DNA from: Paracidovorax anthurii
GTDB taxonomy: Bacteria > Pseudomonadota > Gammaproteobacteria > Burkholderiales > Burkholderiaceae_C
Length of the DNA stretch: 64,000 bases
Assembly: GCF_003269065.1 (NCBI RefSeq)
Contig: NZ_QLTA01000001.1
Span: 62,001 to 126,000, forward strand
Direction of reading: 5' to 3'
Numbering within the stretch: the stretch's first letter is position 1; each line of letters starts with the position of its first letter. The notes under the pieces were generated by a model, which saw only the letters and a list, made by a program, of their open reading frames with translations, was not told where the DNA came from and ran no database searches. Below are positions 15,621-24,149 of this stretch, one piece after another. Made by a program: the position numbers and the translations under genes.

Positions 15621-17471
15621 ATGGCAATCGAGCACATTGAAGTCATTCACACACTGGGGCCCGCGGGCACCAATTGCGAGGCCGCGGCCCACGAGTGGTT
15701 CCGGCGCCAGGGCCGCCAGGGCGCCGTGCACCTGCACCCCACGCTGGAGGTGGCCGTCGAGTCCCTCAAGGACGACCCGCGCATCGCCCTGCTCGGGTGC
15801 GTGGCCTACCCGGACCTGCACACGCTGGTGTTCTCCAACCTCGAACGCTTCCAGATGCTGGACATCTTCGTGATGCCCACGTTCAACATGATCCTCGCCT
15901 CGCGCACGGGCGAGCCGCCCGCCACCGTCGCCACGCACCCGGCGCCGCAGAACCTCGCTCCGGCCGGCGCGCAGCTCTCGTTCGCCAACAGCAACGCGCA
16001 GGCCGCCCTGGACTGCCACCTCGGCAAGACCGAGGGCTGCGTGACGACGGCCAAGGCCGCCCGGTCGCTGGGCCTGAAGACGGTGCGCGATTTCGGCCCG
16101 GTGGCCATGGGCTTCACGATTCCACGCCACCGCATGAATGCCCACCGAACCGCCCCGGCCCGGGCCCGCCCGCACCGCGGTGCGCGGCAGGAAAACCATC
16201 CCCAGGGCCCGACCCTCGCCCTCCTCGACCCGATGAAGACCACCCAACAAGACAAGACCGTGCAGTCGCTGGAACGCCAGCTGAACGCCTTCCGGCAGCG
16301 GCAGACGTTCGACGGCAGCATTCCCGATCCCACACCGCAAGACATCGCCGCGCTGGGCCGCATCCAGGCCACCGGCACCCTGCTGCACGCCCGCTACGGG
16401 CAGGCCCGCATGATCGGCGCGTGGGAGCAGGACATCGCCGCCTGGCTGGCCGCCGGCCTGGACACCCCGCCCTGCTTCGACCGGGTGCGCGATGCATACC
16501 AGCCGCCGCCCAACGGCCTGGACGGCCTGTTCATCGGCCCGGTGATCACCGCCAACGGCCCCCCGCCCCGGGGCTACCACCTCGAATTCTTCATCGCGCG
16601 GCGCGAGGACCCGCCCGAGGTGAGCGATCTCGAATGGACTTATCCGCACCCCAAGAACAAGTGCGAATCCGCCCGCCTGCTGGCCGCCTCCGCCGGCTTC
16701 ATGGAAGGCAACTGCATCGTCTTCTTCCCGGAGAACATCCGCGCGCGCGACAAGGTCAGCCACCAGCAGTACGCGCTGTTCTTCTTCAACAAATTCCAGA
16801 AGATCTACGAAGAGATCACGCTGCGCAACACCACCACCTTCATCGGCGCCGACCTGGCCGAGGCCTGGATGGGCGCCTCGCGCGGGATGGCGCCCGAGGA
16901 CTGCTACCGCGCCCGCTGCGTGTGGGGCTACCTGCACGACTACTACCACCACCGCGGCCCGATGCCGCTGGACACGAACCTGCAGCTCAAGCTGAACTGG
17001 CACGCCGGCCTGCTGGAGGAGATCAAGGTGGACAGCCAGGTGGTGCTGGAATGCCTCGACCCGCGCATCGCCTACGGCGCCTCGGTCATCGAGTTCGTGC
17101 TGCTGGAGCGGCTGTTCCGCTACCCGCTGCAGGTGGACGTGTGCCGCAACTTCGACTCCGGCACGGGCGTGTTCCTGTTCGAGTGGCTTGCGGAGCACGG
17201 CGCCATCGCGCTCGACGGCGGGCGCATCACCGCCTTCGGCCGCGAGGCGATCTACGGCGCGCTGCGCTCGCTGGTGGAGACCATCGAGGCGCTGGAGCGC
17301 TCCGCGCGCGGCGACGACTACAAGGCCCTGGCGCGGCAGTTCGTGTACCGCTACCTGCGCCCGCCGAGCCAGGAGGGCGACCGCTTCGACATCCCGCCGC
17401 GCATGCGGGCCGTGCTGGACGCCGCGCACCGGCCCGAGCGCGAGCTGCAGTTCGCAGACCTCGCGTATTGA
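15621..17471 (+). CDS. BacA-like (prephenate decarboxylase family) domain fused to DUF6421
   Basis: A 616-residue two-part protein in one uninterrupted frame, starting after AAGGA. Residues 1-171 resemble BacA-type prephenate decarboxylases, themselves relatives of prephenate dehydratase: HTLGPAGTNCEAAAHEWF, THPAPQNL, FANSNAQAALDC and GLKTVRDFGPVAMGF align in order with Bacillus BacA as I remember it. A Pro/Arg-rich linker (172-204) leads to residues 205-616, which resemble DUF6421 (GNCIVFFPENI, WGYLHDYYHHRGPMPLD, ERLFRYPLQVDVCRNFDSGTG). The His-rich HDYYHHRG could bind metal. The aminotransferase gene follows 40 bases later. I infer a pathway from prephenate to an unusual amino acid, which has not been shown. 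Confidence 0.7.
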   Translation: MAIEHIEVIHTLGPAGTNCEAAAHEWFRRQGRQGAVHLHPTLEVAVESLKDDPRIALLGCVAYPDLHTLVFSNLERFQMLDIFVMPTFNMILASRTGEPPATVATHPAPQNLAPAGAQLSFANSNAQAALDCHLGKTEGCVTTAKAARSLGLKTVRDFGPVAMGFTIPRHRMNAHRTAPARARPHRGARQENHPQGPTLALLDPMKTTQQDKTVQSLERQLNAFRQRQTFDGSIPDPTPQDIAALGRIQATGTLLHARYGQARMIGAWEQDIAAWLAAGLDTPPCFDRVRDAYQPPPNGLDGLFIGPVITANGPPPRGYHLEFFIARREDPPEVSDLEWTYPHPKNKCESARLLAASAGFMEGNCIVFFPENIRARDKVSHQQYALFFFNKFQKIYEEITLRNTTTFIGADLAEAWMGASRGMAPEDCYRARCVWGYLHDYYHHRGPMPLDTNLQLKLNWHAGLLEEIKVDSQVVLECLDPRIAYGASVIEFVLLERLFRYPLQVDVCRNFDSGTGVFLFEWLAEHGAIALDGGRITAFGREAIYGALRSLVETIEALERSARGDDYKALARQFVYRYLRPPSQEGDRFDIPPRMRAVLDAAHRPERELQFADLAY

Positions 17472-17511
17472 CCCGCGTGAACGCCATCCCGACAGCAAGG
17501 AGAACGCAACG

Positions 17512-18378
17512 ATGAGCGACCTGGCCCGGACCGTCCGGCACATCTGGCTGGACGGCGAAGTGGTGGCGGGCGAGCAGGCCCGGCTGCACGTGCTGAGCCA
17601 CGGGCTGCACTATGCGCAGAGCGTGTTCGAGGGCATCCGCGTGTACCACGGCGCGCCCTTCCGGCTGCGCGAGCACAACCAGCGGCTGATCGATTCGGCG
17701 CGGCTGATCGGCTTCGATCTGCCCTTCGATGCCGAAACGCTGGACCACGCCACCCTGGACCTGCTGCGCCGCGAGAACGTGCGCACCGGCTACATCCGCC
17801 CCGTGGCGTGGCTGGGCAGCGAGACGCTGTCCATGCTGCCGGCGGGCGCCACGCCCCACGTGGCGATCGCCGCCTGGGACTGGCCCGACATCTTCGGCCC
17901 CAAGGCGCGCAGCGAGGGCATCGCCCTCTCGGTGTCCGAATGGCTGCGCCCCGGCCCCGCCTCCACCCCCGTGCAGGCCAAGTGCGCCGGCAACTACGCG
18001 CTGGCGGTGCTGAGCCGGCATTCGTCCGAGCGCAAGGGCGCCGACGATGCGCTGCTGCTGGACGCGCAGGGCAACGTCGCGGAATCGACGGGCGCCAACC
18101 TGTTCATGGCACGCCAGGGCATGCTGGTCACGCCGCCGCCCGACTACGTGCTCAACGGCATCACCCGCCAGACCGTGTTCGGCATCGCGCAGGCGCTGGG
18201 CATCCCGGTGGAAGAGCGCCCCATCGCCCCGCAGGAGCTGTGGGCAGCGGACGAGGTGTTCCTGTGCGGCACCGCGTACGAGATCCAGCCCGTGCGCGCC
18301 ATCGACGCGCACGCCTTCGCCGTGGGCGAAATCACCCGGGCCGTGTCGGAGCGCTACCGGGCCCTGGTGGGCGCCTGA
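17512..18378 (+). CDS. Class IV PLP aminotransferase (branched-chain type)
   Basis: A 288-residue fold-type IV aminotransferase, the BCAT/D-amino-acid transaminase family. It shows SHGLHYAQSVFEGIRVY, the RPVAWLG segment, the PLP lysine in VQAKCAGNYALAV, ESTGANLF and a GITRQTVF loop binding the cofactor phosphate. A second, more conventional ilvE is present at 23158-24096, so this copy is probably specialised. It lies 40 bases downstream of the BacA-DUF6421 fusion on the same strand and would be well placed to aminate the 2-oxo acid made there. Confidence 0.85.
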   Translation: MSDLARTVRHIWLDGEVVAGEQARLHVLSHGLHYAQSVFEGIRVYHGAPFRLREHNQRLIDSARLIGFDLPFDAETLDHATLDLLRRENVRTGYIRPVAWLGSETLSMLPAGATPHVAIAAWDWPDIFGPKARSEGIALSVSEWLRPGPASTPVQAKCAGNYALAVLSRHSSERKGADDALLLDAQGNVAESTGANLFMARQGMLVTPPPDYVLNGITRQTVFGIAQALGIPVEERPIAPQELWAADEVFLCGTAYEIQPVRAIDAHAFAVGEITRAVSERYRALVGA

Positions 18379-18506
18379 CCACTCGGCGCACCGTCCCGCG
18401 CCCCACCCGGCGGCGCGGCGCCGGTGCGTAGTCCACCGGACTGGATGCGCGCGCCCGGGCCCGACATACTCCGGTGGACCCGATCGAGCCCCCCAGGAGA
18501 CACACC

Positions 18507-19586
18507 ATGCCCGCATCCCTGCCCTCCACCTTCGGCCTGCGCCTGCCCGTGATCCAGGGCCCCATGGCGGGCGCGGACACGCCGGCGCTGGCCGCCGCGG
18601 TATCGGCCGCCGGCGGCCTGGGCATGCTGGGCTGCGGCATGCGCTCGCCCGACGCCATGGCGCAGGCCGCGGCCGAGGTGCGCCGCGCCACCAGCCGGCC
18701 CTTCGGCATGAACCTCTTCGTGCAGGACACGCCCCGCCCCGACGCCGCCACGGTGGAGGCCGCGCTCGCACGGCTCGCGCCGCTGTATGCGCGCTTCGGG
18801 CTGGAGCCCGCCGTGCCCGCGCAGTGGTGCGAGGACTTCGCGCAGCAGTTCGAGGCGCTGCTGCAGGCCCGGCCTGCGGTGGCGAGCTTCACCTTCGGCA
18901 TCCTCACGGCGGCGCAGGTCGGGCGGCTGCACGCTGCGGGCTGCACCGTGATCGGCACCGCCACCACGGTGGCCGAAGCCCGCGCCTGGGAGGCGGTGGG
19001 CGCCGATGCGGTCTGCGCCTCGGGGCCGGAGGCCGGCGGCCACCGGGGCACCTTCCTGGGCGACTTCGACGCCTCGATGGTCGGCACGCTGGCGCTCGTG
19101 CCGCAGTGCGCGGACGCGCTCTCCATCCCGGTGATCGCGGCCGGCGGCATCATGGATGGCCGGGGCATCGCCGCGGCGCTGGCGCTGGGCGCGCAGGCGG
19201 TGCAGATGGGCACGGCCTTCCTGGTGTGCGACGAGTCGGGCATCGGCCCCGCCTACCGCCAGGCGCTGGCCGGCGCGCGCGAGACCGGCACGCGCACGAC
19301 GCGCATCTTCTCGGGCCGCCCCGCGCGGGGCATCGTCAACGCGATGATGGAGGCCCTGGCCGGCGCGGAAGCCGACGTGCCCGCCTACCCCGTGCAGAAC
19401 GCGCTCACCGGCGCCCTGCGCAAGGCCGCGGCGGCGCACGGCGATGCGCAATACCTCTCCCTCTGGGCCGGCCAGGGCGTGACCCTCGCGCGGCCCCTGC
19501 CCGCGGCGGCGCTCGTGGAGCGGCTCGAAGGCGAATGGCACGCGGCCACCGCCGGCCTGGCCTTGCCACCGGTTGCTACTATTTAG
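18507..19586 (+). CDS. Nitronate monooxygenase-family flavoprotein
   Basis: A 359-residue TIM-barrel FMN enzyme of the nitronate monooxygenase/2-nitropropane dioxygenase family. Motifs are LPVIQGPMAG near the N-terminus, CASGPEAGGHRG (with the catalytic His), VIAAGGIMDGRGIAAAL and GAQAVQMGTAFL for FMN phosphate. CCAGGAGA ten bases upstream sets the start. The last four codons and the stop codon (TAG) lie inside a 45-bp dispersed element, so the native C-terminus has probably been replaced. Confidence 0.85.
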   Translation: MPASLPSTFGLRLPVIQGPMAGADTPALAAAVSAAGGLGMLGCGMRSPDAMAQAAAEVRRATSRPFGMNLFVQDTPRPDAATVEAALARLAPLYARFGLEPAVPAQWCEDFAQQFEALLQARPAVASFTFGILTAAQVGRLHAAGCTVIGTATTVAEARAWEAVGADAVCASGPEAGGHRGTFLGDFDASMVGTLALVPQCADALSIPVIAAGGIMDGRGIAAALALGAQAVQMGTAFLVCDESGIGPAYRQALAGARETGTRTTRIFSGRPARGIVNAMMEALAGAEADVPAYPVQNALTGALRKAAAAHGDAQYLSLWAGQGVTLARPLPAAALVERLEGEWHAATAGLALPPVATI

Positions 19587-23157: not shown

Positions 23158-24096
23158 TCAGACCGGGGTCAGCCAGTGGGCGTACTTCGGGTTGCGGCCG
23201 TTCACGATGTCGAAGAACGCGCCCTGGATCTTCTCGGTGACGGGGCCGCGGCCGCCCGCACCGATGGCGAGGCGGTCCAGCTCGCGGATGGGCGTGACCT
23301 CGGCCGCGGTGCCGGTGAAGAACGCCTCGTCGGCGATGTACACCTCGTCGCGCGTGATGCGCTTTTGCACGAGCTCGATCCCGAGGTCCTGGCAGATGTG
23401 GAAGATCGTGTTGCGCGTGATGCCGTTGAGCGCGCCGGCCGAGAGGTCGGGCGTATAGACCACGCCGTTCTTGACCACGAAGACGTTCTCGCCCGCGCCC
23501 TCGGAGACGAAGCCGGAGGCATCGAGCAGCAGGGCCTCGTCGTAGCCGTCGTCCACGGCCTCCATGTTGGCCAGGATCGAATTGGTGTAGTTGCTCACCG
23601 CCTTGGCCTGCGTCATGGTGATGTTGACGTGGTGGCGCGTGTAGCTGCTGGTCTTCACGCGGATGCCGCGCTGCAGGCCTTCCTCGCCCAGATAGGCGCC
23701 CCAGGCCCAGGCGGCCACCATCAGGTGGATGGGGTTGCCCTTGGGGCTGACGCCCAGCTTCTGCGAGCCGATCCAGGTGAGCGGGCGCAGGTAGCACGAG
23801 GCGAGCCCGTTGTCGCGCACCACGGCCCGCTGGGCCTCGTTCACCTCGTCCTGGGTGAAGGGGATGCGCATGCGCAGGATCTTGGCGCTGTTGAAGAGCC
23901 GCTCGGTGTGTTCCTGCAGGCGGAAGATCGCCGGGCCCCGGGGCGTCTCGTAGGCCCGCACCCCCTCGAAGGCGCCGCAGCCGTAGTGCAGGCTGTGGGT
24001 GAGCACGTGGACCTTGGCGTCGCGCCATTCCACCATCCGGCCATCCATCCAGATCTTGCCGTCGCGGTCGGCTATCGAGGGAACTACGGGGCTCAT
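23158..24096 (-). CDS. ilvE: Branched-chain amino acid aminotransferase IlvE
   Basis: A 312-residue fold-type IV PLP aminotransferase performing the last step of Leu, Ile and Val synthesis and the first of their breakdown. Motifs include THSLHYGCGAFEGVRAYE, the PLP Lys in MTQAKAVSNYTNSI, SEGAGENVF and GALNGITRNTIF. The ATG is preceded by AAGGA at a good distance. Length and sequence match proteobacterial IlvE closely, unlike the second class IV enzyme at 17512-18378. Confidence 0.92.
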   Translation of the reverse strand: MSPVVPSIADRDGKIWMDGRMVEWRDAKVHVLTHSLHYGCGAFEGVRAYETPRGPAIFRLQEHTERLFNSAKILRMRIPFTQDEVNEAQRAVVRDNGLASCYLRPLTWIGSQKLGVSPKGNPIHLMVAAWAWGAYLGEEGLQRGIRVKTSSYTRHHVNITMTQAKAVSNYTNSILANMEAVDDGYDEALLLDASGFVSEGAGENVFVVKNGVVYTPDLSAGALNGITRNTIFHICQDLGIELVQKRITRDEVYIADEAFFTGTAAEVTPIRELDRLAIGAGGRGPVTEKIQGAFFDIVNGRNPKYAHWLTPV

Positions 24097-24149
24097 GGAA
24101 ATCCTTTTCGGGGCCTCGGCCACCGGGTGCGGCCGCAAAACCCGCGATT

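Follow-up and report, generated by a model that had tools for sequence, protein, structure and literature searches.

A TdaC-like gene, a DUF6421 gene and an aminotransferase gene in Paracidovorax anthurii as a candidate route to a non-proteinogenic amino acid

Three adjacent genes at the locus

The subject of this study is a group of three co-located genes in Paracidovorax anthurii, found in a 64,000-nucleotide stretch (contig NZ_QLTA01000001.1, positions 62,001 to 126,000; hereafter the window) of a draft genome assembly of 5.47 Mb and 130 contigs. An open frame of 616 residues extends without interruption over positions 15621-17471 of the forward strand. It comprises a TdaC/BacA-like gene with the prephenate dehydratase (PDT) fold (15621-16133), a linker (16119-16232) made up of the end of that gene and a former intergenic stretch, and a DUF6421 gene, putatively encoding a PolE-type Fe/pterin oxidase (16233-17471). 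A class IV, BCAT-like aminotransferase gene (17512-18378, forward strand) starts 40 bases past the stop. An ilvE gene of the housekeeping type, outside the trio and included for comparison only, lies at 23158-24120 on the reverse strand and scores 477 bits against 300 for the trio aminotransferase with the same NCBIfam model. The initial annotation had described this layout correctly, including the second ilvE in the neighbourhood. Nothing relevant to the trio emerged when the window was scanned with Rfam and for tRNAs and tandem repeats.

The TRF segment of PDT, whose threonine is catalytic in prephenate dehydratases, was absent from all 29 TdaC/BacA-type rows and present in 4/4 PDT rows (L068 and L069, without a PDT row by the motif filter, were dropped from the count). 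In a profile search, the window protein had no PDT match with E <= 10. The first gene thus lacks both marks of the prephenate dehydratases (PheA), the segment and a PDT match over the cut-off, and its product does not align better with them than with the BacA type; two PDT matches over the cut-off lie elsewhere in the source genome. The initial assignment to the BacA type holds at the level of the superfamily and fails for the nearest named relative, which is TdaC of the tropodithietic acid (TDA) cluster of Phaeobacter (48% identity over 161 residues) rather than BacA (25-27%). A phmmer search of the first half against PDB found nothing beyond weak, unrelated hits (best E 0.19), and a search with its profile found one weak hit, to a glutamate racemase (E 0.12).

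In the phylogenetic analyses, the BacA rows clustered among themselves on a long branch, separated from TdaC and the DUF6421-linked rows with support of 100/100, and the window gene grouped first with the Paracidovorax rows and not with bacilysin BacA. When PDT rows were included, the BacA group joined the TdaC-like rows of Pseudoalteromonas and Micromonospora (84/97, on long branches), and BacA may therefore derive from within the TdaC-like set. The second tree left out two PDT rows, the Proteus row and five BacA rows. A clade of the DUF6421-linked TdaC-like rows (with L014) that excludes TdaC of the TDA cluster was not rejected (p-AU 0.496).

The identity of the second half as DUF6421, as first annotated, was borne out by a match to PF19985 at residues 215-561 (68.9 bits against a gathering cut-off of 25, E 4.5e-19). 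Its description as uncharacterised was overtaken by a 2025 paper, the only one found that names DUF6421, in which the family was linked to Fe/pterin chemistry as that of PolE, the Fe/pterin L-Ile desaturase of polyoxin (PMC12614342). Crystal structures from the family also exist. Both the HE/DxxHx(21-23)E motif and the PolE fold were found in the window protein: the metal motif is HDYYH (domain residues 235-239) followed by 22 residues and E262 (window about 16935-17018), and H235, D236, H239 and E262 were invariant in 21/21 rows. Identity to PolE in the structural alignment was about 20%. At two sites mutated in the SnPolE entries, where PolE has Tyr, Phe was present in 21/21 rows (Y157->F183 and Y280->F307, mapped by hand). 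By homology, the product is predicted to oxidise an amino acid with Fe(II), a tetrahydropterin and O2. In two Pantoea records (L023 10525-11731 and L040 8540-9295), DUF6421 is spread over two frames in one and annotated short in the other.

A one-base difference behind the fused frame

In P. konjaci, the nearest named relative at the trio locus (91% identity in the first domain), and in a second Paracidovorax genome (G007), the first gene terminates after GFTIHAAA or GFTVHAAA, near 16133 of the window, and DUF6421 has its own frame. The window differs in length by one base immediately before this stop, so the frame reads through the former intergenic stretch. The linker does not have a coding-like third-position G+C pattern (0.82/0.86/0.62 by frame, compared with 0.95/0.68/0.48 in the first gene). 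Both genes were seen in 26 relatives, namely 21 genome-scan loci (L001-L012 and L015-L023), G007 and four plasmids (L037-L040), and always as separate frames. The fused frame is thus a change of one base confined to this assembly, caused by either a true mutation or an error in assembly, which a comparison of one genome per species does not separate.

The separate frames in relatives and the non-coding-like linker rule out a conserved bifunctional enzyme, and the fusion that the initial annotation had put forward as a feature is accordingly not supported. It had also named, as what would refute it, two unrelated genes in an accidental frame; the halves are indeed separate genes, but they are linked rather than unrelated. 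It could still be argued that the 616-residue protein is a genuine new bifunctional enzyme of this lineage, which channels an intermediate between its two domains, as the frame is open and the dN/dS of both domains against P. konjaci is low (0.155 for the TdaC-like gene and 0.183 for DUF6421, with 0.177 for the aminotransferase; against G007 the values are 0.177, 0.372 and 0.217, respectively). However, a single-base difference at the extreme end of the first gene in a draft assembly, together with the evidence from the linker and the relatives, makes this highly improbable. In Salinarimonas (L021 9961-11808), what looked like a fusion was an alternate frame, the first gene having its own stop.

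Distribution and linkage of the genes

Matches were found in 7/17 genomes of the genus. Both halves occur in three (the window, G007 and G011), each with the aminotransferase; the TdaC-like gene occurs alone in another three (G003, G016 and G006, whose contig ends just past the gene); and G010 has a shortened DUF6421 together with the aminotransferase. The histidine kinase flanking the site in the window has a homologue in 17/17 genomes, its position having been checked in the fetched regions only. From this patchy occurrence, the trio is an accessory island that was partly lost in several species. A nitronate monooxygenase-like gene downstream (18474-19586, forward strand), also present in the regions fetched from G010 and G011 and not found in that of G007, is probably outside the trio.

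A genome scan gave 23 loci, 21 of which have DUF6421, always with a TdaC-like gene adjacent or at most 4 kb away; the remaining two (L013, at a contig end, and L014) have the TdaC-like gene without DUF6421. The scan query contained both halves, one of its six search patterns lying in the first half. Among 44 Bacillus genomes, the two genes were present, and adjacent, in the same 8, and a BacA-type match (E about 1e-33) was present in 26 others with no overlap, these matches being classed by E-value only beyond the loci viewed. The pair and the BacA-type gene thus occur in Bacillus as if they were alternatives, a pattern that shared descent could also explain. Of 101 Micromonospora genomes, an even draw from a larger set, the same 3 carried both genes at a distance of about 1.2 kb; two more weak DUF6421 matches lacked a strong TdaC-like partner, and one genome had a BacA-like match (2.2e-30) and no DUF6421.

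Among the 21 loci, tblastn with a few queries detected an aminotransferase in 14, an ATP-grasp ligase in 15 and an EamA exporter in 10. The conserved linkage of PDT/BacA-type, DUF6421 and aminotransferase genes looked for at the outset was thus found in many loci. The trio aminotransferase is closer to that of the Pseudoalteromonas xiamenensis cluster (51% identity) than to ilvE of its own genome (39%). The P. xiamenensis cluster also has a pair of neighbouring ATP-grasp genes, as well as a gene annotated as DAHP synthase/chorismate mutase, whose scores with NCBIfam models of that kind stay under the curated cut-offs. No member of the ATP-grasp family of the 15 loci was found among the open reading frames of window positions 5601-28500, and the ATP-grasp ligase and EamA exporter pair was not found beside the Paracidovorax trio.

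Several other neighbourhoods were observed. The Vibrio cluster (L022 11788-18710) has a FAD/NAD-type oxidoreductase, a carbamoyltransferase and an AMP-binding gene close to the pair, which suggests further tailoring; similarity between the FAD proteins adjoining DUF6421 in Vibrio and Burkholderia was not significant. In Salinarimonas a LysE-type gene follows the pair, and a 16 kb Serpentinimonas plasmid (L037 3502-6410) carries the pair with an NTF2-like gene and a LysE exporter. In Proteus mirabilis (L045 5262-8448, in a 4.09 Mb record labelled plasmid), the TdaC-like gene lies between an RraA-like gene, a cupin and a class II DAHP synthase, with DUF6421 absent in the 12.5 kb fetched. A different BacA-annotated gene is found on Pseudomonas aeruginosa and Pantoea plasmids (L043 5950-6570 and L044 5950-6537) within a common set of AMP-binding or phenylacetate-CoA ligase-like, branched-chain transaminase, BacA, carboxymuconolactone decarboxylase-like, ornithine cyclodeaminase-like and LysE genes.

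The product of glmS is the target of anticapsin, and a second GlmS copy would be a possible prediction of an anticapsin-like product. The glmS gene at L022 7166-8995, which lies roughly 1 kb upstream of the Vibrio cluster, was considered as a resistant copy and rejected, being the sole match in that genome. No second copy was found in the 13 genomes searched, each of which had one match at E <= 1e-40, and self-resistance by a second copy is therefore not supported.

Proposed pathway and comparison with known systems

A keto acid derived from prephenate and then made into an amino acid is suggested by the shikimate genes and the aminotransferase, together with the absence of the TRF segment. 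We put at about even the chance that the trio draws on the shikimate pathway to produce a non-proteinogenic amino acid; the route to such an amino acid envisaged in the initial annotation is plausible. Fold, metal motif, family membership and gene linkage are observed, and the substrate, the product and the sequence of steps are inferred. The TdaC-like enzyme would bind prephenate or a close relative and, because the segment with the catalytic Thr is absent, decarboxylate it without aromatisation of the ring. The resulting keto acid, of the dihydro-hydroxyphenylpyruvate type, would be turned into an amino acid by the neighbouring aminotransferase. The DUF6421 enzyme, presumably with Fe(II) bound by HDxxHx22E and a reduced pterin, a cofactor class assigned by homology, would use O2 to desaturate, hydroxylate or epoxidise this amino acid, its presumed substrate. 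In Bacillus, Priestia and Pantoea, the ATP-grasp ligase and EamA exporter may make and export a peptide, comparable to BacD and BacE for bacilysin. More generally, we propose only tentatively that widespread small clusters in Bacillota, Actinomycetota and Pseudomonadota contain a PolE-family Fe/pterin oxidase acting on a non-aromatic, prephenate-derived amino acid supplied by a TdaC-like decarboxylase.

The main rival, which appears somewhat unlikely, has a branched-chain amino acid as the substrate of both the DUF6421 enzyme and the BCAT-like aminotransferase, in line with the action of PolE on L-isoleucine. The TdaC-like protein would then make a second, separate building block or have another role, and the ATP-grasp ligases would join the two. 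PolE acts specifically on L-Ile and gives trace product with Val and Leu (PMC12614342), and the aminotransferases fit such a substrate, that of the trio clearing two branched-chain transaminase cut-offs and that of the Bacillus cluster a valine-pyruvate transaminase cut-off. However, Phe in place of both Tyr residues means that the pocket may differ from that of PolE, and the pairing of the two genes in Bacillus and Micromonospora suggests one shared route. The TdaC-like protein could instead be a divergent dehydratase, or a helper, that boosts the supply of phenylpyruvate, with the oxidase acting on phenylalanine or a relative. The Fe/pterin enzymes known previously were aromatic amino acid hydroxylases (PMC12614342), and a review suggests that TdaC may turn prephenate into phenylpyruvate (PMC7497051). 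This explanation is quite improbable in view of the TRF segment missing throughout the TdaC/BacA-type rows and the two PDT matches that the genome already has.

No report pairing a TdaC-like gene with DUF6421 was found in a literature search with little coverage of subscription journals, for bacilysin/BacA among the 20 of 122 matches listed and for prephenate decarboxylase among the 40 of 68 listed. The recurring pairing, with aminotransferases and amino-acid ligases, places each gene in a defined setting and suggests a class of substrates that can be tested. If the prephenate-derived route is correct, it would represent a bacilysin-like antimetabolite family that relies on another oxidase. 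The chemistry of that family would then also reveal what TdaC does.

As in TdaC, to which it is closest in identity, the first gene product lacks the TRF segment. The role of TdaC is unsettled and is called obscure in the review (PMC7497051); TDA has been reported without tdaC in Janthinobacterium. The genes listed around tdaC, in gene tables that are incomplete, include no DUF6421, aminotransferase or ATP-grasp gene. With BacA the first gene product shares the PDT superfamily and the missing segment, and the bacilysin steps parallel the proposed pathway except for the oxidase (PMC9147277). The Bacillus cluster resembles the bacilysin operon in its ATP-grasp amino-acid ligase, aminotransferase and exporter and differs in that the exporter is of the EamA type and the aminotransferase resembles valine-pyruvate transaminase. 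A bacilysin-type ligase beside the BacA-like gene was found in the Bacillus relatives and not among the open reading frames of window positions 5601-28500. In contrast to the bacilysin operon, DUF6421 replaces the cupin and short-chain dehydrogenase/reductase genes that follow bacA (three of four loci, judged by eye; L074 showed only wrong-strand frames). The second gene product agrees with PolE of polyoxin in Pfam family, fold and metal motif, but has HD instead of HE, Phe at the two hand-mapped Tyr sites, low overall identity and, in its genomic setting, a linked TdaC-like gene.
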